Positions 6,074 through 62,740 of a stretch of 64,000 nt of DNA are shown in pieces. The first letter of the stretch is position 1. Every line of letters starts with the position of its first letter. Origin of the DNA: Cephalotus follicularis. Its lineage: Eukaryota > Streptophyta > Magnoliopsida > Oxalidales > Cephalotaceae. The notes below the pieces were generated by a model. The model was not told the origin of the DNA. It saw only the letters and a list, made by a program, of their open reading frames with translations, and made no database searches. The position numbers were made by a program, and so were the translations under genes. The stretch lies in NCBI GenBank assembly GCA_001972305.1, contig BDDD01002647.1, positions 48,323 through 112,322 of the forward strand, in the 5' to 3' direction.

Positions 6074-6166
6074 CAGCCGACTGTTCAACAGGGCCAGCTG
6101 ACTACTCAATAGAAACAGTTGACTGCTTTCATATGGCAGCTGACTGCTCAACCAAACCAGCTGACT
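6074..6166. repeat. Type I palindrome array, exact 21-bp spacing
   Basis: Five CAGYYGACTG-like units have their reference base at 6076, 6097, 6118, 6139 and 6160, each exactly 21 bp apart. Units include CAGCCGACTG, CAGCTGACTA, CAGTTGACTG and CAGCTGACTG. Spacers are dissimilar. Confidence 0.85.
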
Positions 6167-7576
6167 GTTAAAAAAAAAACAGCCAGCTGTTCTGGACGGC
6201 AGAACAACAGAAACTTGACATTTTCAACACAAAGACTGCCCAATCATGAATAACATCATACTAGAGACATATGAACATATACATGAGACATTATATGATG
6301 TTTAGATGATGCAAAAACATAGAATTGACATGAAGAAGCATACAGGTAGTGATTAACTTCAAGAGATATGGAAGAACCTATAAACATACGCATAAGTACA
6401 AGTCCAAATTTTCTGTCCACTACCACTTGCAGACATTAAAACCAGATTATAACATGTCCATGGTGTTTAGAACATACTGACATACATAGGAATACAATGA
6501 CAGAACATATATATACAGGAATCAAAACCAAGAGATACTAGTAACACAAAATTGAATTTATATCAATGTAGCAACAACCAACACAGTAAGGAACGGATTA
6601 ACTAACCTGAAATGGTGACACACAAATGTTGTACTAACACAACGATTTTCCAAACCTAACCAGCTGATCAACAGGAACAAAAGAGACAAATACATGGTTT
6701 CAAAGTTTGCCCAAAAAAATGTGTATAACCAAAACAGAGCATTCAAAGGGGCTGTAACAATAGAACACCAACCTGATTTTCAATGAAGCCACGTACCAAG
6801 AACACCAAGAGATTCCCAATTAGCAACCACAGCAATGACCAGGAACGAGAGATACAAAGATGACAATATAACAGTGTTTTCTGGCTTACTTAAGCAGAAG
6901 GGAGAGAGATTATTGGGTAGGATAAGGAATAAAGAGAGCATAATCTGATAGATAAGGAAGATAGGAGGATTTTAGGGTAAGCATAAGGAAAGAGATGGTG
7001 AAACCGTGTGAGATAAGAAGGGAGGAGAGAGTGTTACGGGAGAAAGAGGGAGAAGAAAGGAAAGAAAGAAGGAAGAAAGAAAAGGAAAAGGAAAAAAAGA
7101 AAAGGAATAAAAAGAAAAGGAATAAAAGAAAATAAGATAAAAGGATTTTTTTTTTTTTAAAAAGAATTGTTTTAATATTTTTGAAAGTTATAAAATTAAG
7201 TTTGATAAAAAATAAAAAATAAAAAAGACATAAACATAAACCCAACCCAACATTACATCAACATATCCAAAAATTCAGGCTGGTATCAGTCAACCCAAAT
7301 CACATAGGCCCAAAATTCAGGGCAACCGGACTTTACAACAAAACAATTTAAAAAGCCCGAAAACAAACATATATATAAAAGTCCGCAAAACACATATACG
7401 AACAAGCAGGGTATTACAAGAACAAAATAATTTAAAGCACCAATTGACTTAACCATTAATCATTAAACATCTATTAAACATAAAATGAACTTTAACAAAG
7501 CATTTTGAAAGTTAGAACAAAATACAAATGTAATACAAGGATTAATAAAATGATGAATGATGGACATTGCATGTAG

Positions 7577-8785
7577 TCAATCCTCCATCCTATCATTCTC
7601 ATCATATCCATATCCAACATCCTCAATGTCAGTGTCTTGTCCTTCCTGCTGATTCTCTTCGTTTGTTGCATCTTCTTGTATAGACAGAGGTGTCATATCA
7701 TCATCTCCAATAAGTCCTCTTTCAACAAGTTTTCGTTCAAGCATTCTTAGTCTTCTCTCAACACCTTGAATAGCTCGCACAATCTTCTAAAATGAATCTT
7801 GAGTAAGAATTGGACTATGCACAACCTTAGGAGCTAGATCTTCTTGACCTTGTGCTTCTTCTCCTTCTTCTCCCTCTTTTTCTTCTCTGCTTACTCTATC
7901 CAAATCCTCATCTTTGGGAATCCATGTCCCAAGCCGCTTATGCTTCTTAAATCCCATCCTACCTAGGGTTCCCATTCCCAATTTATCATTGTTTTGAAGT
8001 GCACGGTGCACTTCCTTATCTAGATCAATAGAAAAATGCATAAGAATTTTAGTGATGATATTTCAATAAGGGAGTCTTGCATTCTCCCTAGCTTGCATTG
8101 CCTTCATATGGCTGGAAATAAGAAACAGCACATTTATCCTCCTACCAGTAATTATATGAAACATTGTAAAAGATTTCATATGAGTGACTTCATTAAAACC
8201 ACTGACTTTTGGTAGGATATGAGTAGCAATCACTCGATGCAAGAAACGGTAATCGAGCCTAGGATTCCTTGAATACATTTTTTCTAAGACTTGTGCATTT
8301 TCTCTGAATAACAAATGTACACATTCTTCTTTATTAAATCCTTCTTCTTCAACCCAATATCTATATGACAATCCCCTATAACCATCATATGGAATGTTCA
8401 ACATAGAAGCTAGTGTGGAGTAATTCATCATAATATGTTTGTCTTTTACTCTAGTAGACAAACTAACCAAAGTGTTGACAAAGAAATTTGCATAAAACTC
8501 CTTCATCAAGTATGGGTAATGTGGAAGGTTGATAGAAAATAAAGGTCCTAGCTCAAGTCCATCCAACCATTCCACTATAAGAAAACCTTCGCCCAGGCAA
8601 AATTCAAAATTTAAGGTTTTTCTTACAAGGATTTTTCTTTCATAATAAGCTTGTGGATACCTTATTCCTTGTTGAACAACTTCTTGTTTACGCTTTACTC
8701 TGTCAGCCCTAGCACTTTTAGCCCTTGCTCCAATTCTTCTTGAACTTTCTCCTTCTACAACATTTGGATGTTTGGTTCTTGCCAT
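7577..8785 (-). pseudogene. Sirevirus env-like ORF (plant transposon protein), broken
   Basis: One minus-strand frame runs from ATG at 8785 to a stop at 7577, about 400 codons. It is interrupted by an in-frame TGA at 8063-8065 and another stop just upstream of 7781. The first 240 residues are basic at the N terminus (MARTKHPNVVEGESSRRIG), followed by a globular part with an EFYANFFVNT motif. This resembles the 'putative plant transposon protein' domain found as a third ORF after pol in Sireviruses and similar elements. The tail is rich in Glu and Lys with a heptad-like segment (RRLRMLERKLVERG) that could be a coiled coil. Function in Sireviruses is unproven; env-like is a positional name. Pol and gag of this copy are missing. 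The product identity is moderately sure, the pseudogene state sure. Confidence 0.7.
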
Positions 8786-9282
8786 TTTTAGAGTAATCTT
8801 GAGTAGATAGGATAATGTATAATGATATTAGGTGATGTTTATGAAAGATTTTCAAGTGATTTTTGGCCAGATTTTTCTTCAAAATCGCTGATAAATCGTT
8901 GAAAATATTAGGGTTTTGTAAAATGATATAACATACGGTGCTTTAAACTGATAAGTGCGACTTAACCATCGATGCTTAACATAAACCAGCATCTCTTAGT
9001 GTAAAGGAATCTCTAAAAACACACTGTTAACCGCTGTCGCCTATCTACTAAGTATCGGTGCTTAATGCAGCTTTCTCTTTTCAAAGTTTTTGAAAGTTTA
9101 CTAAAATGATGCAAATGATTGTTAATGATGCATGTTACAAAAACGAATAATCACATTATCATAAAATAATCGAAATATTAACCGAAAACACACAATCATA
9201 TAATCACACAAAATCATTCATTCAATATCTCATAAACCTAATTCCATTACAACAATCATTTATACATTTTGGGACATTACAT
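8786..9282 (-). other. Linker upstream of the env-like ORF, with type II motifs
   Basis: This non-coding spacer corresponds to 28686-29092 in the second Sirevirus. It holds decayed type II motifs on the plus strand: ACCATCGATGCTTAAC near 8966, CCGCTGTCGCC near 9033 and AGTATCGGTGCTTAAT near 9052. The second Sirevirus has type I motifs in the same place. Confidence 0.55.
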
Positions 9283-10685: not shown

Positions 10686-13071
10686 TGTAAGCCCCAAATT
10701 TTTATATGTACGGAAGTGTATGTATTTTGTTTGTACTTGTATAGGATTGTACGATATTGTATGTAGGGATGGTATGGATTACATATGATATATACCATTT
10801 TCCACTTTTATAACTTTTTATGGGTAGTGGTGGTTCATCCGAACCTAAGCGTAGCTTTTGAGATTTTCGCCCAAAGGGAGCGTTATCTATATAAGATGAG
10901 CTAACTCTTTCTATTCTCATTTTCATTTCTCTTTTCAATTCTAGAAAGAGTGTGAGTTAGAGAAAGGAAGTGGGCAGAATCGAGCAAGGAATGAGTCTTT
11001 GGGATTGTGGCAGAGTATAGAATCTGAAGGAAGAAGCATAACGAGGATTCAAGAAGCTTATTCTTCGTTCCCAATAGTTTTGAGGTAGGTTCTACACATA
11101 TTCTTTAGATCCATACCTTTTAAATGGATTGAATGGATTTTATGGTTATGGTAGTTGTATACATGCTAGATGATTTAAAACAGATTGAAATGGGAATCGG
11201 AGAGAGAATTGAGAGTTTCGGGTTACAGGCGTAATCCCTTTTCTCTATAGATTCATGGGTTATGGGTACAGATATGAAGGCTTAAAGTTATTTTTATGTT
11301 ACTATTGACCTTGGGGGCATATAATTGCCTTTGGATCGAATTTAAACGGATTTAAGCAGTTTTCAAATGGATTTTACAAACAGTTTGACGAACTGCTTGC
11401 TACTGTCAAACCGTTGATGGTTTGGCTATAGGCATCAACGCTTTAATCGCGCAAACCATCAATGTTTTCGGTTAAAGCATCGACGCTTTATGTGTTGCAA
11501 AATGGCTGATGATTATTGCACGCGTCGACGTTTAAGGCACAACGCTTTAACCGTCGGTGCCTAGCATGAATGCATCGATGCTTAGATGCTAACCGTCGAT
11601 GCTTTGAGCGAAGCAGTCAATACCTAGCTCCCTGTTTCAGCTAAATTATACTATTTTCAAACCCAAATGGTTTTCTCTTCATATGGATTCCTTAGGAATC
11701 CTCCCTAAGGCCTTGTAGCCTATGTGAATCCTCTTTTAACATCTTTAATCTTCAAATCAACTTTCAAAGTGAATCTTTAAAGAAAGTTTCAACAGAAAGG
11801 GTTTTATACGAATGATTTTCAATAAATGGTTTGGATAGATCAATTGGGTCATATGGATGCAGATATCCTAGTTGGACTTCCTCTCCATTATTTTACAAAC
11901 TCTGATAGGGACCAAGAAAATGGTTATGGAAATATGGTTAAGAAAAATGGTTTTGACGGACGGATCCTATGCGATCCTTTATGGTTAGCTGCCTATCCTT
12001 TAAATGGAAATATGGTTATGGGCTACAGGTATGGTACTACTATGATTGATGGTTTGTTACGGTAGAGACTTAACGGGATGACCCATTCGTAATCTTCATT
12101 TTTGTCCTGAAGTATTATGGGTGTATGCCAAATATTATTGATATGGTAGTCCTCCCTTTTTGGATGAACCTACGGGGATCACCGCAATGTAGATGGATAT
12201 TGTATGGCATGGATATTGTATGGTTGTGGCATATATCGCATAGATCTCTATTATGGGCTAGTACCTTCGGGACTAGTATTATGGTATGGATTATGTGAGA
12301 GGGTGTTATCCTATGCTCCACACGGCTATGGCACGGAAGTTGTATAGTTGGTGGGGGGCACTATCTCGGGCCGGAGTGGCAGAGAAGTACTTGACCCTAT
12401 GGATTGATTGTCCTCATGGATGGTTATGGATTGTTTTGTGGAATGTCCGCAGGCCTATGGCCTTTGATGTGTTTAGGACTAGCCAACTATACATCCGCGT
12501 AGGGACAATTGGTATACTAATGCGGTCCACAATTGGCATTCATGCATTTCATATGTCATGCATATATATATATATATACACACACAACTGCTGCATTGCA
12601 TAGCATATAGTATAGCCTACACAGCCATGGGTTTCTAACCCATTCTCGTAATGGGGCAGGTACAGATGATGCATCGATGTGAGGCAGATCGAGATGAATC
12701 AGACTTCCCAGGCATATCTTGGTCAACTGCTAAGATTATTGTTACCTACCACATGTGAGAGTTGGCATGCATAAGAATTATGGTGTTGACTTACCTTGTG
12801 TATAAGAAGGCTTGATGTATTAGACGCATTTTCTATTTCAGCTATTGACCTGCGGGCTTGTGGCAGTGCTTAAGAAAAATGTTTGATGTTACGGTTATGG
12901 TTGGTTTCATGTATTGAATGATTCTTTCTTCCGCATGCATGTTTTAGACTAAAGTTTTAAATTTGTAGCGTATTTTGGAGTATGATTCTACGTATGTGAT
13001 GGATCGTATGGACGGACCTGCCATGTGTCAAGCCTTAGGGTCTTCCTTAGGGTTCGGGACGTGACCGTTTA
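10686..13071 (+). mobile_element. 5' LTR of a decayed gypsy element (element D)
   Basis: It starts TGTAAGCCCC at 10686 and ends just before a primer binding site at 13074. The exact 3' end is uncertain because the sequence before the PBS (GGGACGTGACCGTTTAGG) lacks a clear CA. It holds a type II palindrome array (11411-11622). It also holds a CTAGT/ACTAG hairpin with a TTCG tetraloop near 12249-12268 and a (TA)n run at about 12565-12581. Confidence 0.75.
11411..11622. repeat. Type II palindrome array in the LTR of element D
   Basis: Core positions are 11414, 11435, 11459, 11480, 11525, 11554, 11575, 11596 and 11617. The last four are exactly 21 bp apart. Units range from intact GCGTCGACG to decayed GCATCAACGC. 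Words such as CTTTAA adjoin many units. Confidence 0.8.
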
Positions 13072-17449: not shown

Positions 17450-17858
17450 TGTCACACCCCGTTTCACAAACAACATATAAAGTGGTGGCAATTAACGTAT
17501 AAATCCGGCTTATGCAAAAGTACCATAAATTTAAAACTTTCCATATCTATTAAAACCTGTGGAAGCTCATAAAATAAGCCGAAACATAACATAGCATGCA
17601 TCCCATACTACATGCTACAACAGTAAACATCATCACAGTTAACTGCCCTCAAACGGAGCGTGAACAAAAACCATCAATACCTTGATTCATTTATTACAAC
17701 CATTCAATTATTACAATGATCCATAAACAGTTCTCAAAAGGTAAACAACATAAAACTCCACATTGCTCTCGGCAAAACCATAAGAGCGATCCAGGGTCAA
17801 AGATAAAACATGTCATGATATGAATGCACAATGATGCAGTACATACTATATCTCGATG

Positions 17859-17890
<32 letters not shown>

Positions 17891-18128
17891 CCACGACCAC
17901 ACGGTCACAGGCCACGATGTCACAAAACATCCACAGTACACGGTTCACAATATAACAACGGCCAACAATATCTCAGGTCTCTAAGAACCCATCACAACAC
18001 AATAACGATAGCCACGTCCCAAAGGACAACAATCAGGCATGTAAAGGCAGACAATCAATCACACAATAGCAAACAATTGTTCCCATCACAGGCACGAAGG
18101 AGTGGACAACACTCGGAACTCACTCGAT

Positions 18129-18335
18129 ACAAGCACGGCGGCAAGTACCAACACTTCCCCGCTAACGGCAACACTCACGATACTAGCACGGCGGCTAAGT
18201 ATCAACATTACCCCGCTAGCGGCAACACTCAAACACAATCAATACAATAACATCCACGTTACTAGCACGGCGGCTAAATAACAACAATCAATCAATCACG
18301 ATAACGATACTAGCACGGCGGCTAAGTACCAACAC
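18129..18335 (-). repeat. Four hairpin repeats in the gag-only LTR
   Basis: Minus-strand units pair as GATACT..AGC with GCTAGTATC around a CGCCGT loop. Other copies have GTTATT with AGTAAC and GGTACT with AGTATC, so arms vary together or by wobble. Copies lie near 18133, 18178, 18259 and 18306. Between them sits CCGCTAGCGG or a close variant. Confidence 0.6.
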
Positions 18336-18742
18336 TCAACACAGTCACAGTACAGTGCAAACACAGCACCCACAGTCCACTCAAGTAGTTTATAAAATAA
18401 ATACTTGATTCAAAGCATCTCGTTCCCAAAACGGTTTAAGTATAAATACTTTCGACATATATATTTGTCAAAACATATATACAACACTTCATTTCCCAAG
18501 TAAGTTATGATTCATAAAATACTTGCAATAATACTTTTCTCTTTAAACATTTCAAGTAATTTATAGATATAAATACTTGCAACGTATATATATTTGCCAA
18601 AATATATATATAACGATCATTTTCCCAAAACTCAAGTATCAAAGTACTTGGAACCATACACTTTCGTAAAATCCGGTTATTTGAACTACATTCAAATACC
18701 TCAAAATACATATTTGTATATCAGTTCGCAATCTCTCGAAAG

Positions 18743-19090
18743 CCATTTTCACAATCCTTTTGGAAACCATTTTCCAAACACTAATGATTTCAATAAACCT
18801 TTAACCAAACACATTTTCACAATTCTTTTGGAAACCATTTTCCAACCAACTAATGATTTTAATAAACCATTAACCAAACACATTTTCACAATCATTTTGG
18901 AAACCATTTTCCAACCAACTAATGATTTTAATAAACCATTAATCAAACTCATTTTCACAATCCTTTTGGAAACCATTTCCCAAACAATTAATGATTTTAA
19001 TAAATCATTAACCAAACACGTTTTCACAATCATTTTGGAATCCATTTTCCAAACAACTAATGATTTTAATAAACCATTTACATTTTCACA
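18743..19090. repeat. 69-bp tandem repeat, about five copies
   Basis: The unit starts CATTTTCACAAT at 18743, 18812, 18881, 18950 and 19019, with a shortened copy near 19081. Each unit includes TTGGAAACCATTTTCCAA, itself a hairpin. The length is a multiple of three, which explains the long open frames in both directions here; these are not taken as genes. Confidence 0.85.
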
Positions 19091-19291
19091 AGGTTTTGGA
19101 AGCTACTTTCACAATCTTTCGAGAATATTTATATATCTCAAAACATACAATTCACATAAAGTAATAATTTATGTAAATCACATTTGCGCTCCCAAAAGGG
19201 TAAAACGTTTCACAATCATCAATAACCATATCGAAATACGGTTTAACACAATACAATATGCATACATATGCTCACAATGCAAAACGGTTCC

Positions 19292-19760
19292 ATCAGTCGG
19301 TCGTTTCTCACTGACAGTCGGCTGTTTTCCTTCAACAGTCGGCTGTTCCACACTTGGCAGTTGGCTGCCCATCACAACCAGTCGGCTGCCCTCCTTGGCA
19401 GTCGGCTGTTTCATGCCAACAGTCGGCTGCCCTCCTTGGCAGTCGGCTGTCCCTCCTTAGCAGTCGGCTGCCCCCTCCAGGCAGTCGGCTGCCCTCTCCA
19501 GGCAGTCGGCTGGTCCAATACAATACACATTCCTTGCTGCCACATGTCCCATCATGCCCGGGCGAGTGACACGTGGCCAGTCGGCTGTCACCCAAAACCT
19601 TCGGCTGGACCACCACACAGTCGGCTGCCCTCCTTGGCAGTCGGCTGCACTAACAACAGGGAGAAACTTGTAATTCCAGGCACGAACAGTCGACTGGCTC
19701 CAATGCCCAGTCGGCTGTTTTCCTTGGGCAGTCGGCTGCCTTCCTTGGCAGTCGACTGCC
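19292..19760. repeat. Type I palindrome array (CAGTCGRCTG), 21-bp phase
   Basis: Eleven consecutive units have reference G at 19296, 19317, 19338, 19360, 19381, 19401, 19422, 19442, 19463, 19484 and 19505. The mean interval is 20.9 bp. More units follow up to about 19755. Spacers of about 11 bp differ, though several are pyrimidine-rich. Many palindromes extend outward (GGCAGTCGGCTGCC, AACAGTCGGCTGTT). Confidence 0.9.
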
Positions 19761-20289
19761 GATACGGGCAGTGCCCAAAAACAGAAGCAAATACACACCT
19801 CAAATCCACATTTCAACCATTTCAACCATAAAACTCTATCATCACAACACATATTCAGGCTTCTATCACAATATCACATATGCATATCACCCATAACATC
19901 ATTATAAATGACTTTGAATCACAAATATAGCTTTCCCCTACCTTAGAACTCCAAGTTAGGAGTTGCAATCCACCTCTTTAAGTCCTAGATCCGAGGTCCT
20001 TGCACTCCTAGGCGCGTCAAGCAGCCTCCACCAGTCCGGTTCCTCCACTGGTCCGGCCTCCAAGCTTTTGGTTCAACACCAAACTCCCCACAACCACAAC
20101 ACACACACACACTTTCACTCACTCACACCTTAAACACACTTAAATCACAAAGGAAATGGAGATTGAGGAGAAAAAGTTGTGTTTTTATGAAGGAGTCACG
20201 GCCCCCCTCTCTCTGCCAAAAACCACCAAATGCCAAAATACCCATCACTTTCTCATTTTATGGCTGACAGCAAGTGGCTGTCTGGCGCC

Positions 20290-20425
20290 TGGCAGTCGAC
20301 TGCCATGCCTTGGCAGTCGACTGTTTCTGCCGACACTAAAAACAGTCGGCTGTTTCCTCACAACAGCAGGCTGCCGCCTTCACCAGAGGAGTCCAGTCGG
20401 CTGCCTCCCTGTGGCAGTCGGCTGC
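20290..20425. repeat. Second type I cluster in the same LTR
   Basis: Units CAGTCGACTG or CAGTCGGCTG lie near 20295, 20316, 20345, 20394 and 20417, with a decayed unit near 20366. Spacing is again about 21 bp or a little more. Confidence 0.8.
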
Positions 20426-20568
20426 CCCCTGCACCAAAAACACACTAACACACTTTTTCTTGCAACTTTTACCACACCAAAGGGAAAAACACAATTCTCA
20501 ATAATTCCACGTATAAAATTACATTAAAAATGCAATATTATACCTTAACGAAAACCCCGGGCGTTACA

Positions 20569-28685: not shown

Positions 28686-29092
28686 TAGAGTCGAATACAG
28701 GTCGAAATTTGAGAGTTTTAGGGTTTATGGTGTTTTTAGAAAAGAGAGAATGAGAGAAAGCATAAGGGAATTCGGGTTTAAAACCCTGATTCCCGCACTT
28801 CCAGTCGACTGGGCCTTTATGGCCAGTCGGCTGGATATGAGGCAGTCGACTGGACTCTTTGTCCAGTCGGCTGTTTTCTGCAGATTCTGGAAATGCAGAA
28901 AATTGCCTTATCCAATTGGTTTACAAACCTTTGGTTAACTATTATGGACTAATAGGAACCTAGGTACATGAGCTAATTGATGTCATTGAGTTAAAAACTC
29001 GATGTTAAATGCATGATGAATTTTGAAAATCATTTTTCATATAAATTCAATCAACATTTAGCAAAGCATTACAATTTCACACATATTGAGAG
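28686..29092 (-). other. Linker between pol and env-like ORF
   Basis: This non-coding stretch contains a four-unit type I palindrome cluster at 28801-28873, just upstream of the env-like start. It could hold a promoter for a separate env-like transcript, but no clear TATA box was identified. Confidence 0.55.
28801..28873. repeat. Type I palindrome cluster upstream of env-like ORF
   Basis: Four units (CAGTCGACTG, CAGTCGGCTG, CAGTCGACTG, CAGTCGGCTG) have reference G at 28804, 28826, 28845 and 28866. The mean spacing is 20.7 bp. It is the same motif as in the LTR of this element (34582-35070). Confidence 0.85.
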
Positions 29093-36650: not shown

Positions 36651-37118
36651 GTTGAGTCCTGGAAATTTCGGTTTTCAACTTTTCTTATCCGTTCGTTCTT
36701 CCGTTGGATTAGGGTCTATTTTAAGTACCGTTATGAATCTGTTTTATGTCCGTAGTTGGTTTTAAGTCCTCATTTGAATGATTTCACATCTTATAGATAT
36801 TGTGCTACCGAGGGGCAGCTAGAACTTATCGGTCAATTAGTAAGTTATTCAGTGATCGCATAAGGTACGGATTCTATCAATCTTTGGCTATCTTAATATG
36901 ATTGAAACAATTCAGTTTCACTCTTATGATATTCGAACTCCGTTATGTTTTGAATTCTGATATGTTTTGAAAATAACGTCACTTGATATTTTATGAGATA
37001 AATATTTCTGACTTTATGAATTCGGTTATGATATGTTTACGAAATGTTATGCAATAATCTCTTTTGTGAAATTTAAATTAGTTGAGTTTTTGTACCCACA
37101 TATGGGGCGTACCATAGG

Positions 37119-48862: not shown

Positions 48863-50035
48863 CAGTCGACTGGTACAATAGACCAGCCGACTGGTTGACT
48901 GCGTATGGGAGCAGTCGATTGGTGGGATGAACCAGTCTACTGGCCATCTGTCGAGCCACATGGTAACGATCTGCCAGGTGAGCAGTCGGTTGTTGGGTGT
49001 GGACAGCCGACTGGATCGTGCTCTATTTTGTTGCATGTGACAGAAATCACATGCCACAGCTGACAGATGGAAGTGGGTGCCATCTGTGTTTCATACAGCT
49101 AAAGGAAAGGATGAAGAGGACACTTGTGGATCATGCAAACTTCATGGGGGAAAGGAGTTTAGACCTGTGAGTGTGTGCATGCATGTGGAGAAGAAAATTG
49201 GCATTTAGTGCCATGTGAGAGGAGCTAAGGAAGAGAGGTAGAGAAATTTCCTGCCTAAAACGTCTTCCCTCATCTCCTTCGTCCTGGCACTGAAAAGTCT
49301 AAGAACCAAAGAGGATAGTAGAAAAAAAAAAGCACAGAGAAAGAGGAAAGGGAGTGTTTCTCCTTGTTGAAGCTTGGTGCTCGGGTTGGAGCTATTGGAC
49401 TATTCTTGGAGCTGCTGGGCTTGGAGTTGGAATTTCTGGGAGCCCAAAACGTCACTGTTGGAACATAAAGAGGTGGACTTACAGATTCCTTACTTGGAAT
49501 CAAAAGGTAGGGGAAGTTGTAATGGTATTTTGAGTTTAAAGTTACTGCATGTTCTATGATTTGAATGTCTGGTTGCGTGAGTTGTAACCACTAATTTTAG
49601 GACGTGGTTGCTACTGTTTTTCATCTGTTATGCTTGCTACTGAGAATCAAACGAGATTATGTGCATGCATGTTGAACCTTATCGTGTTGTTGACTTGCAT
49701 GATGAAATGTATGTTGGATGTGGTGTTATATGGACGATATGATGAGCTATAGGTATGTTTCTATCCTTGAGATTGAATTCTCTGCTTACAATGATCCGTT
49801 GGAGTAGATAGATCGATTTGCATGCAACTAGTTCGTGGGGCAGTCGACTGTCGAAGGAAGACAGCCGACTACTCAATGGAACCAGTCGACTGTTAATGGA
49901 AAGCAGTCGGCTGCTCATACTTCATCCTGCCCAGAAAGTGGCAGAAAGTGTGATCTAGGTGATAGAAGGAACCAGCCGACTATCTGGTACTGCTCGACCC
50001 AGAACAGCCTACTGGTAAGGATTCCAGCCGACTGG
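48863..50035. repeat. Type I palindrome clusters in the chromovirus 5' LTR
   Basis: Cluster one has units at 48865, 48886, 48914, 48935, 48985 and 49006. Cluster two has units at 49843, 49864, 49885 and 49906 (exactly 21 bp apart) and then 49975, 50007 and 50027. Unrelated sequence separates the clusters. Confidence 0.85.
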
Positions 50036-50280: not shown

Positions 50281-52419
50281 TGTAACGCCCGGTATTTTGC
50301 TGAATGTAATATTTCGATTTATGATGTAATCATTAAACTTGAATTAATGAGAATGTTGAGTTTTTGAACTCAAAGGATGCTTACAAACCCTACTTATGGC
50401 TTTGGAAATGGAATGTGTGTTAAAAGCTTGAAATGGCACTGTTTGGTACAAAGACATCGATGTCTTTGGAAAGACGTCGACGCCTTTGGGGAGTGAGGTA
50501 CACGTGAATGAACGTCGACATGGAGAGAAGGCATCGACACCTTCTTACAAAAAAACGGAAAATACATCGACTTCTAAGGAAAGACGTCGACGCCTTTGTA
50601 GGAATATCTGTCGTACTTCTTCGCTGGCAGAAGTAACATGCAAGGGGATCTTGGGGGCTTTACCTGACACCTTTTCAAGTGCCTTATGACGTGTTGAGCA
50701 TGTCGGTGTGTTGCCAGGAATGCTCAGAACATGTCCTCACATGGAACATGTAAAGGATTGCCACCCTCACATGCAACCTGCAAGGAAAAAGGATTAAAGA
50801 AAACAAAAGAAATGCAGAAAGAAGGAAGGTGGGAGAGAGTACGAATATGGCAGTTAAATGCCAGGAGAAGAATGTCGGGGGGGGAGCCATCTGCATAAGA
50901 ATAACCCTCCCCACTTATCTCTCTCGTTTTATAACACCAGAAGAAAGAGAGGGAATAAAACAGTGTGTGTGTGTTCCACCATTGTTGACCTTGGAGCTTG
51001 GACCTTGGAACCACTGGTGCAGCTACGGGACGGACCTAGAGAGGCTGCTGTGACCTGTTTGGATACTAAAAGAGGTGGACTTTCGGTTTCTAACTTGAGG
51101 CCAGAGGTACGGGAAAGCCATACTGTAATTTCGAGTTTGATATTCATGCATGGTTTATGATTTTGGATGTATGAATTGCATGATTCTTGAAATGATATTG
51201 TTACTGGAATGATACCACGATATGCTAGATATGTTTTGAGTATCTGCATGTTGGTTTCTTGCCTTAAAACCTATTATTATGCATAATTATGGGTTGTTGA
51301 GGTCATTGTTGTTAAGTCGTGAGGTAGAAGACGACTACTGTTGGAAAAGACATCGACGCCTTTAGTCGAACATCGACGTCTTTTAGGTTTTGCCTCGTTA
51401 CTGATTGGAAGGGATCGACGTCTATGGAAAGACATCGACGCCCTAGGCTACCTACTTGGGAATTGGATGTGAAAGACATCGACGCCTAAGGTTCCTACCT
51501 TAACACGTCTACACCATCAACAACACGCTGTCGTTTTAAGGTCCCAGACCTTGAACGTCGACGCGTAAGAAATGGACATCGACGCCATCTGTAGAAGAAC
51601 GCGCTGACACTTAGATTGAGACATCGACGCCTGACGTGAAAGACATCGGCGCCTTTGGGAAAGATGTCGACGCCTTTGTTACTGTTTCGGGTTTTCTTCA
51701 TCAAATGATATGAAATGATCCCGATTCCTGTTAGGGTGTATTTGAGCATATGTATGCATTACATATGCACTATTTATTGACTGTTGTATACTGTTTGTGA
51801 ATTGTTTATGATTTCTAAAGTATTGGTATTTAGAAATGCTTATATGAACTCGAAATAGAATATTTTGAGTATGAAAATATGTATTAGTTGAATAACGTAT
51901 TTTCGACTGAACTATAAATAATTTACATTACTGAAACTGTTACTGATATTTCTATTGAAAATACCTATTTTCAAATGTTGTCAATTTTGGAAACATTTTG
52001 GAAAACAACTGCCTGTTGTCGATCAAATCGATCATTACTGTTTACTGCACTGATACTGTTTGAATTCACTGTTTGCTCTGTGAATTGCTATGTGTTTGTG
52101 TTTGAGCTGCTAGTTGCATGGCGGAGGTTGCCAGCGCCGACTAGTGGTAGGGTTGTACCTAGGGGCCAGGAGCATGGCTAGGTGACTCACTGTACTGTTG
52201 CCTCGCTCGGTTGCCCGAAGTGGGGACCGGAGTGGGAGTGTAGCGTGGGGCCAGGAGTTGGCGATGCTATAACTGTTTACAGCTTATGAACTTGTTATGC
52301 TTCCGCAACTGACAGTTTACTTGGAAAAGTTTTAAATTTTATGGTTTTACATGAGCTGTATTTTATGTTAATTGCCTTTACCGCTTTTATGTCGCGTTTT
52401 CCATAAACGGAGTGTGACA
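50281..52419 (+). mobile_element. Solo LTR nested in the chromovirus 5' LTR
   Basis: It begins TGTAACGCCCGG and ends GGAGTGTGACA, 2139 bp, flanked by AATTT at 50276-50280 and 52420-52424. The intact 3' LTR reads AGCAATTTCCACTACTG at this point, with one AATTT. It carries strong type II arrays (50455-50590 and 51350-51670). No internal region remains. Confidence 0.95.
50455..51670. repeat. Type II palindrome arrays in the solo LTR
   Basis: ACATCGACGCCT and AAGACGTCGACGCC units have cores at 50457, 50477, 50515, 50534, 50567 and 50587. A second set lies at 51353, 51373, 51415, 51435, 51479, 51558, 51579, 51605, 51624, 51646 and 51667. Most steps are 19-22 bp or about twice that. Confidence 0.85.
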
Positions 52420-53486: not shown

Positions 53487-53583
53487 ATATTCCATATATG
53501 CTTAGCTAGGATACTTTCCTTGGCAATTAATGAATTGTTTTCCTAAAGTCGTGACTAACCGTTAACCTTCTTATAGGAACCCA

Positions 53584-56500
53584 ATGGACCGAAGGAGGCA
53601 GCGTACTAGCGCTAGAGCTGTTGGAGCTAATGCCCCTGAGGAAGAAAACATTCCGCAAGGGATGAATATTCCCCAAGATGATAGAGATCCGATGGCCGGG
53701 ATTGCAGACTATTTTCAGCAACATATGGCCTTTAATAGGGCTAATGCGGAGGAGATGCGCCAGTACTATGCGCAAGCTCGACCGCAACATAGGGCTCCTG
53801 ACCACTGCCCGGGGGAGGATGGGAACCTGTTTGGGAGAGATATCGAGAAGTTGATGAGGCTGAATCCACCCAGTTTCTGGGGGGAACTTGATGCTACTGT
53901 TGCTGAGAGATGGCTACAAGACCTGGAGAAAATCTTTCAAGCGATGGACTGTACCGACACTCAAAAGCTGAAGTTTGCAGTTTATCGCCTATGGGGTGAG
54001 GCCACTCATTGGTGGGAAATTGTCAAGGCAAAATGGGAATCACGGAGACTGGACAGCACTTGGGACAGATTCCAGACGGAATTCCTGGAGACTTATGTTC
54101 CGCGTATTGAGCAAGAGCGACGAGAGACAGAGCTCTTGGACTTGCGACAGGGAAATATGACTGTGGTTGAGTATCAAGCAAGATTCATGGAGCTAGCCAG
54201 ACATTTACCTTATCTGGTAGCTGATGAACAGAAGGAGATTCAAAGATTCCTGAGAGGTCTGCGACCGGATCTTCGATCAAGAATTAGAGCTATAGAACTG
54301 AGGACTTTTATGGAGGTTGCTCAGAAAGCAAGACTGTTGGAGACCATATCCAGTGAAGACCGGGCTGAGAGAGCTCGTGCACAGTAGAGTAAATAGAGCC
54401 CTACACAGTCCCGACCGACATCGTCGAAATGGCAAGATGGTGGTTCTCCGACGAAGTCGTCTAAGAACAAGTCTCAACAGACAGCTTCACAGGGCCCTCC
54501 TAGACAAGGGAGTAATGCTAGATCCGGAGGTTGCTATTATTGTTGTCGCACAGGCCACCAACAGAAAGATTGCTGGAGGTTCAATGGTTTGTGCTTGAGG
54601 TTTTGGGCACCTGGTCATTCAGTGAAGGATTGTCCGAAGAGTTCTGCTACAGCGCCTATTGGGCCGGGGAGTAGTAGTGGTGCGGCGGTGGGACCGTCGT
54701 ATAGGAAGGACACTGGCAAGGGCATCGCAAAAGGTAGAGTTTTTGTACTTGCTCAGACATAGGTTCCATAGTCGACTTCTGTTGTCGGAGGTACTCTGTA
54801 TATATATGGTTATTCTGCTAGAGTATTGATGGATTCTGGAGCATCACATTCCTTTATATCTGTACGTTTTGCATCTTGCTTAGATGTCACCCCTGACTGC
54901 ATGTCCTACATACTTGATATGAGCACACCGACTGGGACTTCTATGTATACTGATTCGATATATAGGAGTTGTGAGATGTCTATGGCAGGCGTTCCTTTGT
55001 ATACAGATTTGATAGTGCTGCCTATCCGTGACTTCGATGTTATATTGGGGATGGATTGGCTCTCAGCACACCGTGCTCGTACAGATTGCTATTGTAAAAC
55101 TGTGGATTTTTGTCTGCTCGACGGAACGACTTTTCAGTTCAAGGGAGACAAAGGGTTTTCAACACTGATCATATCCTTTATTCGAGCATCGAGCTACCTA
55201 GAGAAGGGATGCGAGGGATATTTGGCCTACGTGATTGATCGAAGGAAAGAGAAGGGCTTGAGCTTGGAGGAAATTCCAGTTGTGTGCGAATTTCCATATG
55301 TATTTCATGATGACTTGGGATCTTTGCCACCGAAGAGAAATATGGAGTTTGTTATCGATCTTATACCAGGTATAGCTCCTATTTCTAAAGCACCATATAG
55401 GATGGCCCCTGCAGAATTGAGGGAACTGAAATTACTGTTGCAAGATCTGATCGATAAGGGTTTTATTTGACCTAGTGTTTCTCCATGGGGTGCGCCTGTA
55501 CTATTTGTCAAGAAGAAGGATGGGTCGATGAGACTCTACATCTACTACAGAATGTTGAACAAGGTAACTACCAAGAACAAATATCCTTTACCCCACATTG
55601 AGGAGTTGTTTGACCAGTTGCAAGGATCAAGGGTGTTTTCCAAGCTCGACTTGAAGTCAGGTTATCACCAACTGAGAGTAAGGGAAGGAGACATTGAGAA
55701 GACTGCCTTCCGGACACGGTATGGTCATTATGAGTTCTTGGTGATGCCGTTCGGTGTTACCAATTCACCGGCAGCTTTTATGTCATTGATGAATGACGTA
55801 TTCCGACCATACCTGGACCAGTTTGTTGTGGTATTTATCGATGACATACTAGTATATTCAAGGAGTGAGGAGGAGCACACTCATCATCTGAGACTAGTAT
55901 TGCAAGTTCTCAGAGAACATCGGTTGTACGCCAAGTTTGGCAAGTGTGAGTTCTGTCTTGATCATGTGATCTTTCTCGGTCACATCGTATCTGGGGAAGG
56001 CTTGACGGTGGATCCGTCAAAGACTGAAGTAGTACGAGACTGGCCGCAACCGAAGAACGTGACGGAGGTGCACAGTTTCCTTTGATTGGCAGGGTATTAC
56101 AGAAGGTTCATCCAGAACTTTTCAAGGATAGCTGAGCCCTTGACTAGACTGACCCAGAAGAAGACGCCTTTTGTCTGGGACAAAGACTGTAATGCTAGTT
56201 TCCGTGAACTAAAGGATCAGTTGGTTTCCGCTCATGTCTTGGCATTACCTGATGGTAATGAGGTATTTGCGGTCTACAGTGATACATCAGGTAAGGGTTT
56301 GGGTTGTGTATTGATACAGCGAGGCAGAGTGATTGCATATTCCTCAAGGAAGCTAAAGCCGTATGAAGAAAACTATCTGACTCATGACCTTGAGCTTGCA
56401 GCTATTATCTTCGCCATTCAGAGGTGGAGACACTATCTTTATGGGGCGCAGTTTGAGATCTTTACCGATCATAAGAGTTTGAAGTACCTGTTTTGTCAGG

Positions 56501-58152
56501 ACACACTGAACATGAGACAGCGCAGGTGGGTAGAATTCTTTAATGATTATGATTGCAGTGTCCAGTACCACCCGGGGAAAGCGAATGTAGTTGCTGATGC
56601 CTTGAGCCGCAAGGCTATGGTTGCCAGTGCGATGGTATCGCAATGGAAGATTCTGGAAGACTTCCAAGAGTGGTCTCCGTTCAATCAGTTACCGGGGATT
56701 TTTGTGGCCGACATGCAGGTCCAGCCAGTGTTACTGGATCACATCAGGGATGCACAACCACACGATCCGGAGTTGGAACGAATTCGAGAGAATCTGGACT
56801 CAGAATCTGATTTTTTAGTGCATGCTGATGGCATTCTGAGATATCGGGGACGTGTGTGTCTTCCGAATGAACCAAGATTGAAGAATGAGTTACTCCGCGG
56901 GGCTCATAAATCTCTGTACAGTATTCATCCTAGTAGCACCAAGATGTACCAAGATATGAAGAAGACTTACTGGTGGCCCGGCATGAAGCGCAAAATTGCC
57001 GAATATGTCACGAAGTGTCTGACTTGCCAGAGGGTCAAGGCCGAACACCAGAGGCCGGCAGGACTGTTGCAGTCATTACCAATGGCGGAATGGAAGTGGG
57101 AACACATTGTGATGGACTTTGTTTCTGGATTTCCACTGACTAGGAACCATCATAATGCCGTGTGGGTTATTATTGATAGACTCACCAAATCAGCACACTT
57201 CTTGCCTACATACGTCACTGATTCCGCGAGCAAGTTGGCTCGATTATATGTGAAGGAGATTGTGAGACTGCACGGTGTTTCGGTGAGCATCGTTTGCTAT
57301 AGGGATTCGATCTTCACTTCCAACTTTTGGAATAGATTCCAGACAGCCTTCGGAACAAGATTGAATCTCAGTACTGCTTTCCACCCTCAAACCGACGGAC
57401 AGTCCGAGCGTACCATCCAAACCTTGGAGGATATGCTTTGGGCTTGTGTGATCAATTTTGCTGGAACCTGGGAGGACCATATTCCTCTGATAGAGTTTTC
57501 TTATAATAACAGCTATCACGCGAGTATTGGTATGGCTCCATACGAGGCACTGTATGGGAGAAAGTGTAGGTCACCCATCTGTTTGGACGAGGTTGGTGAA
57601 CGACCATTGCTTGTGTCATATTTGGTGGAGGAGACTTTGGAGAAAGTCAAGTTCATCAGAGAGAAGTTGCTAGCAGCACAGAGTCGGCAGAAGAGCTATG
57701 CCGACAGTGTGAAGAGAAGGCCTTTAACCTTCAATGTTGGGGATTACGTGTTTTTGAAGGTATCTCCATGGAAAGGGGTGCAAAGATTCGGGAAGAAGGG
57801 CAAGCTAGCGCCACGCTATATTGGTCCTTTTGAGATTCTGGAGAGGGTTGGGGAGGTAGCTTATCAGCTAGCCTTGCCTCCTACCTTGTCGGGTATACAT
57901 GATGTCTTCCATGTATCGATGCTACGAGGTTATATCCGAGACCCATCACATGTCCTGGATTATGACTCGATTACGGTGAGGGATGATCTTTCCTGCGAGG
58001 AGTCACCCGTGGGGATCTTGGATTGGAAGACACAAGTATTAAGGAACCAGACCATTCCGATGGTAAAGGTTCAATGGCAATTTCACCGACCGGATGAAGC
58101 AACTTGGGAGCATGAGAGGGATATCCGACAACGCTACCCACACTTGTTCTAG
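53584..58152 (+). pseudogene. gag-pol: Chromovirus gag-pol, one frame with six stops
   Basis: ATG at 53584 (MDRRRQRTSARAVG) opens a single frame to TAG at 58150. Gag core: ELDATVAERWLQDLEKIF. Knuckle one, CYYCCRTGHQQKDC (54532), is intact; knuckle two has Phe for its second Cys. Protease: LMDSGASHSFIS at 54826. RT: a FIDD box (55834) is present, but the usual CIDYR motif reads YIYYR (55537-55551). RNase H: VYSDTSGKGLG and FTDHKSLKYL. Integrase: zinc finger CLTCQRVKAEH; the second catalytic Asp position reads VCYRD (Tyr, 57298). TDGQSERTIQTLED follows, then the GPY/F module GKLAPRYIGPFEIL. A C-terminal chromodomain ends RQRYPHLF. In-frame stops lie at 54385, 54394, 54760, 54769, 55468 and 56083. 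It is dead, but recently so. Confidence 0.95.
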
Positions 58153-58199: not shown

Positions 58200-60841
58200 T
58201 GTAACACCCGGAAATTTCATGTATTGTAATTTCACAATGTAAATGTACTTTATTTGTGGAATTAATAAAAAGATGGATTTTCTGAATATGATGATGTTGT
58301 TTTTAAATCAATTAAGTACTTAGAAGTGTGATCGCTTAGTATGTACACTAAGAGCAGTCGACTGGTACAGTAGACCAACCGAATAGTTGACTACGTATGG
58401 GAGCAGTCGACTGGTCGGATGAACTAGTTGACTGGCCAACTCTCAAGCCACATGGTAACGATCTGCCAGGCGAGCAGCCAGCTGTTGGGTGTGGACAGCC
58501 GACTGGATCATGCTCTGTTTTGTTGCATGTGACAGAAATCACACGCCACAGCTGACAGATGGAAGTGGGTGCCATCTGTGTTTCATGCAGCTAAAGGAAA
58601 GGATGAAGAGGACACCTGTGCATGCATGTGTAATAGAAATGTAGCATTTAGTGCCATGTGAGGGGAGCTACGGAAGAGAGGGAGAGAAACACTCTGCATA
58701 AAATGTCTCCACTCATCTCCTTCGTCCTGGTACTGAAAAGTCTAAGAACCAAAGAGGATAGTAGAGAAAAACATAGAGAAAAGAGGGAAGGGAGTGTTTC
58801 TCCATGGTTGAAGCTTGGAGCTCGGGTTGGAGCTATTGGACTGTTCTTGGAGCTGCTGGGCTTGGATTTGGAATTTCTGGGAGCCCAAAACGTCACTGTT
58901 GGAACACAAAGAGGTGGACTTACAGATTCCTAACTTGGAATCAAAAGGTAGGGGAAGTTGTAATGGTATTTTGAGTTTAAAGTTACTGCATGTTCTATGA
59001 TTTGAATGTCTGGTTGCGTGAGTTGTAACCACTGATTTTAGGACGTGGTTGCTACTGTTCTCCATCTGTTATGCTTGCTACTGAGAATCAAATGAGATTA
59101 TGTGCATGCATGTTGAACCTTAGCATGGTGTCGACTTGCATGATGAAATGTATGTTGGATGTGGTGTTACATGAACGATATGGTGAGCTGTAGTTATGTT
59201 TCTGTCCTTGACCTTGAATTCTCTGCTTACAATGATGCGTTGGAGTAGATAGATCAATTTGCATGCAACTGGTTCGCGGGCCAGTCGACTGTCGAAGGAA
59301 GACAGCCGACTACTCAATGGAACCAGTCGACTGTTAATGGAAAGCAGTCGACTGTTCATACTTCATCCTGCCCAGAAAGTGGCAGAAAGTGTGATCTAGG
59401 TAATGCTTTTGAAAGGGTGTGCAGTAACAATCGACTGTTGAAGGATAACAGCCACTACCTAATGGACAGTCGACTGGTAGAAGGAACCAGCCGACTATCT
59501 GGTACTGCTCGACCCAGAACAGCCCACTGGTATGGATTCCAGCCGACTGGTTGGACTGCTGTTGGACTCTTCTTGCTTAAAACAATGCGAAACGATCCCG
59601 ATTCCTGCTAGGATGCATTTGAGCATTTGTATGCATTGCATATACACTGTTTACTGCCTGTTCTGGACTATTTGTAATCAGATTATGATTTCTAAATATT
59701 ACTACTTTAGAAATGCATATATAAATTGAAACTACTATGTTAAGTACGAAATGAATATTGTTTTCGTATTTTCAAACATCTTTGGAAAGCAATTTCCACT
59801 ACTGAAACTGTTTAAAAGTATTTTCTACTGAAAATGCATATTTCAATGTTGTCACTTTTGGAAACATTTTGGAAACGAACTGCCTGTTGTGGATCTAAAC
59901 GATCACTACTGTACTGTTTACCGTACTGTTACTGCTAGGATTCACTATTTGCTCTGTGAATTGAACTGTGTTTGTGCTTGGGCCACTGGTTTCATGGCGG
60001 AGACTGCCAGCGCCGGCTAGTGGTAGGGTTGACCTAGGGGCCAGGAGTTGGCTGGGTGACTCACTGTACTGTACTGTTGCCTCGCTCGGTTGCCTGAAGT
60101 AGGGACTGAAGTGGGAGTGTAGCGTGGGGCCAGGAGTTGGCGGCGTTACATATATTGCTTGCCTGTTGCGGTCCTTTATGGACATCCTGTACTGCCTGTT
60201 GGTCCTTCTCGGACATTACTGTGCCTGTTGATGTAGCCCTGGCCGGGTAACTACTGTACTGTTATTGCATACATATATTTTCATATGTATATATGCCCCC
60301 ACTGATATTTTACTGTACTGTTAAACATATATATTTTCATATATATATAAACTGGGATTTCTACTGCACTGCATCATCTATGCATTAATATCATGACATG
60401 CTTTTAATGTTAATCCCGAACTACTTTTATGACTTAGCCGAGTGAGGACAAAGGCTAACCCCCCTACTTTCAAGATTGAGGCAGCTGACAGCATGGACGA
60501 AGAGCAAGTCTTAGCTTCTTGTTGTTGGCTTTATGTTCTTTCGCTTTGTAATAAACTGTTGTGTTGAGATTCTAATGTACCGTTCTGTTGGTTTTGATAA
60601 GACTGGGATTCCTTTAATGTACTGTGATCACGCTCCATTTGTGGGCTTTTAACAATGGCTTGTAATTGGGTAGCGTGCAGTATGGGATGCACGTTACGTA
60701 TTTTCAGCTTATGAACCGTATGCTTCTGCAACTGATACCTTGTTTATGAGTTTAAATTTTATGGTGATCGTATGAGTTGAATTTATGTGTTAATTGCCTT
60801 TACCGCTTTAATGTTGTCTTCTCGTTAAACGGGGTGTGACA
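58200..60841 (+). mobile_element. 3' LTR of the chromovirus
   Basis: It runs from TGTAACACCCGG to GGGGTGTGACA, 2642 bp, uninterrupted. Compared with the 5' LTR it keeps an extra stretch of about 70 bp near 59400-59475 with more palindrome units, and lacks some bases near 58615. GTCC/GGAC mini-hairpins lie near 60170 and 60203. Confidence 0.95.
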
Positions 60842-61432
60842 CACGAACACTTATAGCCTAAGCCCATCGAGCTCCAGTGTCGCTCGAGTACTGCACTGCT
60901 CATGGCTTTGGTCAGTGGGTTTACCAAATTTGCCTCTGAGGCAACTCTCTCTAAAATGATGTCTCCTCTCTCTATGATCTCTCTAATCAGGTGATATCGA
61001 TGTTGTATATGCTTGGAGCGGTAGTGAGACCTGGGTTCCTTGCCTTGTGCAACAGCCCCATCATTGTCACAGTACACCACAACTGGACGTGTGATGGTTG
61101 GAACAACATCGAGTTGAACAATGAACTTCTGCATCCAGACTGCTTCCTTTGCAGCATCTGAGGCAGCTACATATTCTACTTCTGTGGTGGAGTCTGCAGT
61201 AGTTTCCTGCTTTGAACTCCTCCAGCTGACTGCACCTCCATTAAGCACGAATACAAATCCTGAAACTGACTTGTGATCATCCGGTTCACTATTGAAACTA
61301 GAGTCTTTAAAGTCCTCAAGTCTCAATACACTGTCTCCTCCGTAAGTCAGGAAAGTATCCTGAGTCCTCCTCAGGTACTTTAAAATTCCTTTGACAATTT
61401 CCCAATGTTTCTCATCGGGATCGGACAGAAAT
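60842..61432 (-). pseudogene. Copia RNase H, C-terminal part, split from its LTR
   Basis: The minus-strand reading holds the copia RNase H: EKHWEIVKGILKYLRRTQDT, SGFVFVLNGGAVSWRSSKQ, TTEVEYVAASDAAKEAVW, VVYCDNDGAVAQ and HRYHLIREIIERGDI. It ends near SSMGLGYKC at the insertion point. Joined across the chromovirus it reaches the polypurine tract (48680) and LTR (46315-48679). The upstream RT is cut at 61432 by another LTR insertion. No stop lies inside the visible 190 codons, so the copia element may have been intact when hit. The lineage is not assigned. Confidence 0.85.
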
Positions 61433-62576
61433 TGTAATACCCTGCTCGTTCGTAAATATATTTTCACGGATTTTATATGTGTTTTCGGGCTTTTAATTTT
61501 GTTTAATTTTAAAAGTTCAGTTGCCCTATGATTTGGGTTTATGTGGTTTGAGCTGACTATTACCGGTCCGAAATTTTGGGTATGATATGCTATGTTGGAT
61601 TTGGGTTTTATTTATTTTATTTTAATCCAAAATTATTTTAATTAAAAACAAATTATTATTCTTTTCTTTTTAAAATCCCTAATTCCTTTTACTATTATTT
61701 CTTTAATTTTCCTTTTTCCTATTTTATCATTTTCTCCTACTTTCCTCCCATCTTCCTCCTTCTTTCCAGCAAATTCCTTCCTCCCACCATCAAATGTCAT
61801 GCTAAAGTCTCTCTTTTCCTATTTCAAAATCCAGAAAAGTCTCCTTTCTTCCTCTTTTGTCAAATCATGTCTCCTCCTTTCTCCTTTCTCCTTTCTTGGA
61901 GTGCCTTTGCCATTTTATATGTTGTACACATCTTTCTTGCAAGCCACTGCAGATTCTGCCTTGTTAGTGTGTAACAAACTGCTGTGTAAATCATTCTTCA
62001 AAGTTCAAGAGGTAAATTCGATCCTTTAGTTGTTTCTTTGGATTAAATTCTCTTAGTTTGCTATGTATGTCTAAGTATGCTATGGTTTTGTATTCTTCTT
62101 CCCCTGTTTTTGTTCACAGCCGAATTGTGGGTGTGTGCTAGTGTTTCTTCTACTGTCTTTGTGTTCTTGGAATCACTACAGGTCAGTAAATTCGTCCCTT
62201 TAATGATAGTTTCATTGAAATTGAGTTTTGTGCTCTTAGTGTCTTTGGGCCATTGATTCCTGCCTAAACATGTTATTATTGTGTTAGTGATATTGTAAAC
62301 ACGTTTTATACTCATATATGTGTCACAAACTTGTTTTATAACATCTGTAATCAATTATAGACAGAATTTGGACATATACATGCATCGCCTTCTTACTTCC
62401 TTTTGTAGGTTAAATCACTATCAAGTTGTTTCCTTGTCAAATTTGTGTTTGTATGTCACCTACAAGTCATATATGATCATATGTTTATGTCCATATGTCT
62501 CTAGTTTAATGTAGAAACCATTTGAACCATTTTCAGTAGCAAATCGTCGGATTTCCAACTTTTCTGTCACCCAGAA

Positions 62577-62740
62577 CAGTCGGCTGTCTCTGTGGACAGT
62601 CGGCTGGAATGGTTGTGTAGTCGACTGGAGGGATGAACACAGACGACTGCCTGCATTTTGGGTTGTGTAGTCGACTGGACCATATGAACAGTCGACTACC
62701 AAGCCTCCCCAGTCGTCTGGAGCCCTGTTTTAGTCGACTG
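62577..62740. repeat. Type I palindrome array
   Basis: Reference positions are 62579, 62599, 62620, 62642, then 62670, 62691, 62712 and 62733. Steps are 20-22 bp with one 28-bp step, the same layout as 36466-36650. Confidence 0.85.

Follow-up and report, generated by a model that had tools for sequence, protein, structure and literature searches.

The window analysed here, 64,000 nucleotides of Cephalotus follicularis DNA (contig BDDD01002647.1), is plant DNA made up mostly of nested long terminal repeat (LTR) retrotransposons. Several of these elements carry in their LTRs tandem arrays of a ten-base motif, CAGYCGRCTG (type I), repeated at a step of about 21 bp. Type I arrays occur in the gypsy elements A and B and in C, a Sirevirus of the copia superfamily, and a second motif (type II) occurs in the gypsy LTRs A', E1 and E2 and in a second Sirevirus remnant, C2. 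New are the type I motif and its step in gypsy LTRs, beyond the Sireviruses, the second motif common to gypsy LTRs and a Sirevirus remnant, and the presence in sister gypsy LTRs of different motifs at the same place. Judging from the sequence, we think it rather probable that the arrays are clustered recognition sites of a sequence-specific DNA-binding factor, situated in the cis-regulatory part of the LTR and, in C, also before the ENV-position open reading frame (ORF). All counts and comparisons concern this one window of nested elements.

Form and spacing of the arrays

Exact matches to CAGYCGRCTG number 56 in the window, where 20 Markov resamples averaged 0.05, and sites with at most one mismatch number 89, for 2.8 expected from as many resamples. 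All 56 exact sites and 87 of the 89 fall into 11 arrays of at least three sites each. Within the arrays, 52 of 76 steps measure 20-22 bp (39 at 21, eight at 20 and five at 22), whereas random placement that kept array spans and site numbers gave 6.6 +- 2.4 such steps, with a maximum of 16 in 5000 trials. An earlier note, made on this DNA from its letters, had proposed arrays with a 21-bp period, and these figures bear it out. Its two worked examples also stand: five units at 6074, 6095, 6116, 6137 and 6158 are spaced by exactly 21 bp, and eleven units from 19294 to 19503 have a mean step of 20.9, the units at 6095 and 19294 each having two mismatches. Tandem Repeats Finder reports periods of 21, 41 and 62 bp in the B array. 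Three type I units at 19-23-bp steps give 11 overlapping matches in the window and 10 stretches in 257 billion bases of bacterial and archaeal genome sequence; viral scans found no related locus.

The units are less regular than they had been described. The palindrome CAGTCGACTG accounts for 21 of the 56 exact sites, and the other 35 are asymmetric. On the plus strand, 29 of the latter read CAGTCGGCTG and six read CAGCCGACTG, which is the same form on either strand; the alternative palindrome CAGCCGGCTG is found in 0 of 56. Nor is the TCGA core fixed, as had been claimed: the centres are TCGA, CCGA or TCGG, and the array at 6074 also has CTGA and TTGA. The base preceding the ten-base unit is T in 0 of 74 units, and the base following it is A in three of 74, a count that leaves out the A 5' LTR. 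Elsewhere, at 471-495, two GAGTCGACTC palindromes lie 13 bp apart, a third palindrome sharing the core.

Within a family, the asymmetric exact sites point the same way in 34 of 35 cases (B 17/17, C 8/8, D 4/4, A 5/6, D being an LTR family introduced below). The odd site, at 49904 in A, probably reflects a later change since its counterpart in the partner LTR (59345) is a palindrome. Thirty of the sites lie on the sense strand (A 5, B 17, C 8) and five on the antisense strand (A 1, D 4). A constant orientation on the sense strand, which at first stood at 34 to 1, was rejected because the D family runs opposite; the antisense direction in D holds if the direction inferred for this family, from its terminus and the primer-binding site (PBS) of one copy at 39580, is right. 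Such uniformity agrees with duplication of the units and with oriented binding, singly or together.

The earlier note had also placed the sites on one face of the helix. The 21-bp step agrees with this and so, weakly, do the longer type I gaps, which show a 10.5-bp phase (p 0.0017; in-phase part, p 0.007) in a set of 19 gaps, counted without the A 5' LTR copy, one of which, of 42 bp, contains a two-mismatch unit. The best-fitting period is 10.9, with a phase that is not exact, and four periods had been tried before. Type II gaps of 29, 44-45 and 50-51 bp do not fit, so that there is a hint of helical phasing over long gaps for type I and none for type II. Adjacent units resemble each other little in their spacers (0.33, compared with 0.37 for distant units of the same array). 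Within families, spacer likeness nevertheless exceeds that of shuffled composition (z 3.4 in A, 5.3 in B, 8.0 in C and 7.9 in D), and some duplicated B spacers are visible by eye.

The type II motif also stands out in number, with 25 plus-strand sites at up to one mismatch for 2.7 expected in the window. This upholds the motif; the 21-bp period claimed for it is weaker, as only 10 of 24 steps in E1, E2 and A' measure 20-22 bp when units with two mismatches or fewer are counted, the remainder being 29, 33, 42-45, 50-51 and 57. Over the whole window this limit gives 61 and 85 sites per strand against 49.6 expected, a moderate excess, and some type II units may therefore be due to chance. In A' the units read GACATCGACGCC and similar. 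A type II cluster that had been listed at 37630 is present in degenerate form: a second TCGA/CCGAC cluster occupies 37651-37824, in an inferred D LTR (35346-39575) that also has a type I array.

Carrier elements and sharing between them

The coordinates of the elements and arrays are collected in the table below.

Table. Array-bearing elements of the window, with their arrays and coding frames
Feature	Positions	Strand	Basis or remarks
Gypsy element A, 3' LTR	58200..60841	+	termini TGTAACACCC...GGGGTGTGACA; self-BLAST pair with 48708-53471, 90-94%
A 3' LTR, type I array 1	58355..58505	+	LTR +156 to +306
A 3' LTR, type I array 2	59282..59549	+	LTR +1083 to +1350
A 5' LTR, type I array 1	48863..49013	+	
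A 5' LTR, type I array 2	49841..50034	+	
A gag, protease, reverse transcriptase (RT), RNase H and integrase frames	53566..58149	+	several, stop-broken; Pfam
Solo LTR of sister gypsy family A', within A 5' LTR	50281..52419	+	termini; self-BLAST break, 5-bp overlap; AATTT either side
A' type II array 1	50455..50594	+	LTR +175 to +314
A' type II array 2	51351..51674	+	LTR +1071 to +1394; same place as A array 2
Gypsy element B, 3' LTR	17450..20568	-	termini, matches to A; gag (Pfam) at 20858-22099
B type I array 1	20293..20424	-	LTR +145 to +276
B type I array 2	19294..19758	-	from LTR +811; 17 sites with at most one mismatch and a weaker unit at 19294
Type II array, gypsy-like LTR E1	1191..1345	+	LTR end 2943
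Type II array, gypsy LTR E2	11433..11603	+	PBS 13074, gag 13425-13946
Type I array, D LTR	6074..6189		LTR start 7418, minus
Type I array, D LTR	36466..36651		LTR inferred span 35346-39575 (+)
Type I array, D LTR	62577..62740		LTR start 61433, +
Sirevirus C, 5' LTR	33985..35200	-	TATA 34538, polyC run, CA/ATTGG junction; start placed by eye
C type I LTR array	34582..35073	-	about +128 to +619, upstream of TATA
C copia gag-pol frames	29096..33932	-	several; Pfam
C type I array directly upstream of ENV-position ORF	28802..28873	-	four units, outside LTR
C PF20167 frame, ENV position	28019..28423	-	followed by AGGGGGAG octamers at 27348, 27317, 27278
C2 (second Sirevirus remnant), PF20167 frame	8063..8827	-	AGGGGGAG octamers at 4974, 4939, 4738, 4589
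C2 3' LTR, first half, six type II-like sites	3940..4579	-	TATA 3895

The occurrence of the arrays in unrelated superfamilies, in which the earlier note saw a striking convergence, is supported, since the carriers belong to both gypsy and copia and BLAST similarity between them is confined to the arrays. Indeed, the C LTR matches the gypsy and D LTRs only at its positions 114-627, the array occupying 125-616 (counted from 35197), and the C2 LTR has no BLAST match at E 0.01 to the LTRs A3, A', B3, E1, E2 and D3. The assignment to gypsy is based on the pol domains of A, the gag of B, and the PBS, gag and protease (tblastn) of E2; A' and E1 are assigned by LTR similarity only. Element A, with LTRs of about 2.6 kb, has an initiator methionine (iMet) PBS at 53475. 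B (20502-22099) has retained gag, along with a stretch matching A at the end of pol and the beginning of the LTR; most of pol is missing, and the element resembles a deletion derivative.

Some likeness also extends to the spacers of different families. Between B and C it amounts to 0.319, for 0.276 expected from composition (z 7.6); the comparisons of A with each of B, C and D (z 3.7-4.7) and of B with D (z 2.7) are above composition as well, more weakly, and that of C with D is not (z 0.3). Such likeness may represent a longer binding site or an exchange of units, and convergence cannot be distinguished from a passing of array units from one element to another.

The arrays at 6074, 36466 and 62577 had been attributed to gypsy elements. 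They belong to a single LTR family, D, present in three copies in the window, in which no coding domain was found, and the gypsy label is unproven for them. In the array region the three D copies are 52-66% alike outside the motif. Their comparison indicates that the motif is better conserved than the spacers: identity is 42/49 against 34/72 (p 1e-5), 59/78 against 47/79 (p 0.02) and 45/59 against 63/97 (p 0.09, not significant), in three comparisons that share sequences and so are not independent, with motif columns defined on the third copy. In the LTR pair of A, the two members of which were identical at insertion, the motif is not above its surroundings (0.908 against 0.937, or 0.946 against 0.933, depending on the LTR used to define it). 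This suggests that the motif matters during multiplication of the element and not after it has landed. One D LTR (7418 to about 5010) seems to be inserted in the linker between the C2 octamers (4589-4974, a repeated stretch) and the PF20167 frame. Another starts at 61433 next to a frame (60811-61611) that is 36% identical to the one encoding RT-RNase H in C, perhaps its insertion target.

The arrays recur at like positions of the LTR: +1083 in A, +1071 in A', +811 in B and +1121 to +1230 in D. Between A and A', BLAST identity is 65% in the LTR part before array 2 and 79% in the part after it. Global alignment puts the four blocks of array 2 at 37-45% identity over aligned columns, compared with 52-61% in the three preceding blocks and 69-91% in the six following ones. 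The low identity of array 2 between better-matching flanks implies that the position was kept and the motif replaced. A different tandem array, with GAGCATGCCATGC/GAGCATAGCATAG units at steps of about 16-23 bp by eye, lies at 24640-24930 in an LTR that starts at 25586 (minus). It is downstream of a TATA box at 25410, and this LTR adjoins the end of a gypsy integrase at 25633-26022.

The copia carrier C is an ENV-type Sirevirus, in agreement with the earlier assignment: it has copia domains, and its LTR junction, polyC run, cTATATAAg box and polypurine tract (PPT) octamers match the marks given in the available text of the description of the group (PMC2829016). There the junction of LTR and PBS is CA-ATTGG-TATCAGAGC (PMC2829016). 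In C it reads CA-ATTGG-TATTAGAGA, with the LTR end at 33985 and two changes in the PBS. The polyC integrase signal is present as seven consecutive C, the last of them about 15 bp from the LTR end, and a cTATATAAg box lies about 43 bp beyond the end of the array. The window holds three AGGGGGAG PPT octamers in C (minus strand), four in C2 and no others; in Sireviruses there are several such octamers close to the 3' LTR, for the most part behind ENV. A 3' LTR of C is not recognisable. Its array before the ENV-position frame, outside the LTR, is an addition to those listed in the earlier note.

In C2, the octamers and at least the first half of a 3' LTR follow the PF20167 frame, as in Sireviruses, and the LTR-like start, at 4579, lies ten bases past the start of the last octamer; no pol was found nearby by tblastn with the C proteins. 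A weight matrix trained on gypsy type II units only detects the six type II-like sites of the C2 LTR (3940-4578) where shuffled sequences give 0.3-0.5 and none of 200 reaches six. Upstream of the C2 PF20167 frame it detects two, which 4 of 200 shuffles reach, and in four control regions 0, 0, 1 and 1.

The PF20167 frames of C and C2 are hardly alike. The Vitis protein P0072, which joins a copia RT to a partial PF20167 domain (below the Pfam cut-off), weakly supports the view that PF20167 represents the ENV-position protein. Database matches to a PF20167 frame come from C. follicularis, the Australian pitcher plant, in 103 of 103 cases, and those to gag in five of six; the copia RT search showed no Cephalotus protein among the named ones of at least 120 matches listed.

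Likeness to known systems

Repeated palindromes have previously been described as a Sirevirus trait. The RM boxes of these elements are multi-copy palindromes placed within the LTR's upper half, a short way ahead of the TATA box, and also before the ENV gene (PMC2829016, available text, as for all comparisons in this paragraph). The C arrays resemble them in lying at both places, in the LTR and ahead of the ENV-position frame, and in having diverged flanks. Seven of 15 exact C units are perfect palindromes and eight are near-palindromes. Two CpG-to-CpA/TpG changes are all that separates the Vitis RM box CGGTCGACCG from CAGTCGACTG, and the box of Tnd-1, ACAATCGATTGT, also has a TCGA centre. The C units begin with CAG and end with CTG, and so lack the CGG-CCG signature of RM boxes, which is likewise absent from Tnd-1. 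The C arrays are thus Sirevirus RM boxes without the usual CGG-CCG. The gypsy arrays are alike and stand outside the group: RM boxes are described as specific to Sireviruses relative to other copia elements, whereas A, B and E2 are not Sireviruses, and the available text speaks neither of a fixed spacing or a common orientation nor of any case in gypsy elements.

In the VANDAL transposons of Arabidopsis, tandem rows of a short motif in one direction are the targets of the anti-silencing protein VANC, and the motif varies between relatives (PMC5735166, PMC10398659, in the parts available). The VANC targets are similar in that a short motif with C/T variants is present in many tandem copies of the same orientation in non-coding DNA. 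This layout is seen in type I (34 of 35), and not in C2, where type II-like sites are of mixed direction. The VANDAL elements differ in being DNA transposons whose own protein binds, and the same parts of these papers mention neither a 21-bp rule nor LTR elements. A VANC-type domain (DUF1985) was found neither in the 24 frames scanned with Pfam, out of 37 of at least 120 amino acids, the elements being broken, nor in five PF20167-bearing database proteins. The likeness to VANC is an analogy only.

A host factor serving several families has a precedent in Drosophila Traffic jam, which recognizes a pseudo-palindromic motif and occupies LTRs in several elements of the gypsy family (PMC7618790, available part). 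By this analogy, a shared host factor would be equally plausible. The case differs in that it is animal and that binding has been shown, and the available part mentions neither tandem 21-bp arrays nor sharing between copia and gypsy. As for the crossing of superfamilies, a maize Sirevirus palindrome is reported, in the accessible text, to occur in Helitrons as well (PMC10760457).

A literature search for tandem TCGA palindromes in gypsy LTR retrotransposons found no paper, and none of the listed matches containing the two ten-base words concerned retrotransposons, as judged by title and beginning of the abstract. Clusters of factor sites in LTR promoters are familiar from the repeated activator boxes in the U3 of Tnt1 and Tto1 and from the heat elements of ONSEN. 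These differ in having fewer copies, known host stress factors and one family each.

Competing explanations and significance

How clustered sites for a DNA-binding factor might operate can be outlined as follows. Steps of two helical turns would align the bound molecules on one side of the DNA, and the aligned molecules may jointly activate the promoter or hold it open against silencing. Local tandem duplication is the probable way in which the arrays grew, and would account for the uniform orientation. Selection during propagation would have retained motif and spacing, and the spacers would have drifted. Unrelated elements using the same factor would come to share a motif, either by converging on it or by exchanging array units. 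Types I and II would correspond to different factors, or to one factor with changed specificity. The earlier note had suggested, more narrowly, that dimeric proteins sit on the palindromes. Binding of the sites by a protein is still the best reading, while the dimeric form is weakened by the asymmetry of 35 of the 56 exact sites, their uniform direction within a family and the lack of the other palindrome.

Several observations weigh against this reading. The type II step is loosely kept; in C2 it is never 21 bp (106, 92, 60, 43 and 114), and four sites point one way and two the other. TATA-like words, seen by eye between the two arrays at 50927 in A' and 20192 in B, would put the second gypsy arrays downstream of the start site, an odd place for activator sites. 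Finally, a ten-base tandem motif can have a minisatellite origin, for which the spacer likeness within families and the B duplications may be cited.

If the sites bind a protein, host stress regulators of the AP2/ERF CBF/DREB type would be candidates, and the elements would then be induced by cold or drought. Both motif types contain RYCGAC (GCCGAC, GTCGAC or ATCGAC), which fills the arrays, a match of the core only. GTCGAC is listed as the site that barley HvCBF2 prefers (CRTDREHVCBF2), and CCGAC as a low-temperature core, in the available text of three papers (PMC4222965, PMC6410323, PMC4553201), and the RM-box matches of Bousios 2010 were mainly to stress factors. That study, in its available part, found no one factor common to RM boxes (PMC2829016). 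Moreover, dictionary matches of six bases are weak evidence, and the conservation of ten bases, with CAG and CTG flanks, exceeds what the CBF core needs. We regard this explanation as unlikely. Still less likely, in our estimate, is that the arrays act as RNA, read-through hairpins feeding small RNAs and silencing as proposed for the maize Sirevirus palindromes. Five folds were computed for the arrays of A, B and C. Strong folding was obtained with antisense RNA of B (z -9.4, 0/200 shuffles) and C (z -4.0, 0/100) and with sense RNA of A (z -3.7, 1/200), and an excess of small RNAs over palindromic Sirevirus regions has been reported (Bousios 2016, as cited in the available text of PMC10760457). 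The sense RNAs of B (z -2.05, 7/200) and C (z -1.76, 8/100) fold near the level of shuffles because C4 and A7 mismatch. A link to 21-nt small interfering RNAs, which the earlier note had offered as an option, is thus weakly supported: antisense RNA folds strongly for two arrays, and sense RNA weakly in two of three. Avoidance of RNA hairpins as a general cause of the asymmetry was rejected, since the A array folds well in sense. An RNA role would explain cost and recognition by the host but not the conservation of the motif between copies, and the hairpins are likely a by-product that may attract small RNAs.

Improbable as well, and the least favoured of these three, is a neutral minisatellite spread between LTRs by slippage and gene conversion. 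The Tandem Repeats Finder periods in B, the uniform orientation that duplication yields, the spacer likeness within families (z 3.4 to 8.0) and the spacer bases common to B and C (z 7.6) would all be expected of it. It does not account for a motif that is conserved above the spacers between D copies and not within an LTR pair, nor for the recurrence of arrays at like LTR positions in A, A', B and D. A bolder form of the factor-binding reading, which we hold to be very improbable, makes the PF20167 ENV-position protein itself a VANC-like DNA-binding anti-silencing factor, targeting the arrays upstream of ENV and in the LTR. The gypsy arrays would exploit the Sirevirus factor of the same genome, and types I and II would be two specificities, each with its own Sirevirus and gypsy users. 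Among five PF20167-bearing database proteins, none has a DNA-binding domain above the Pfam cut-off; one has a sub-threshold winged-helix match (E 0.09).

To return to the preferred reading, clustered sites for a DNA-binding factor, a motif and spacing common to gypsy elements and a Sirevirus in one genome, together with a second motif that crosses the superfamilies in like manner, point to a common cellular factor and offer a comparison by which it might be found. If this is true, unrelated mobile elements would compete for, or share, one switch, and the change of motif between sister LTRs would be the record of an arms race.

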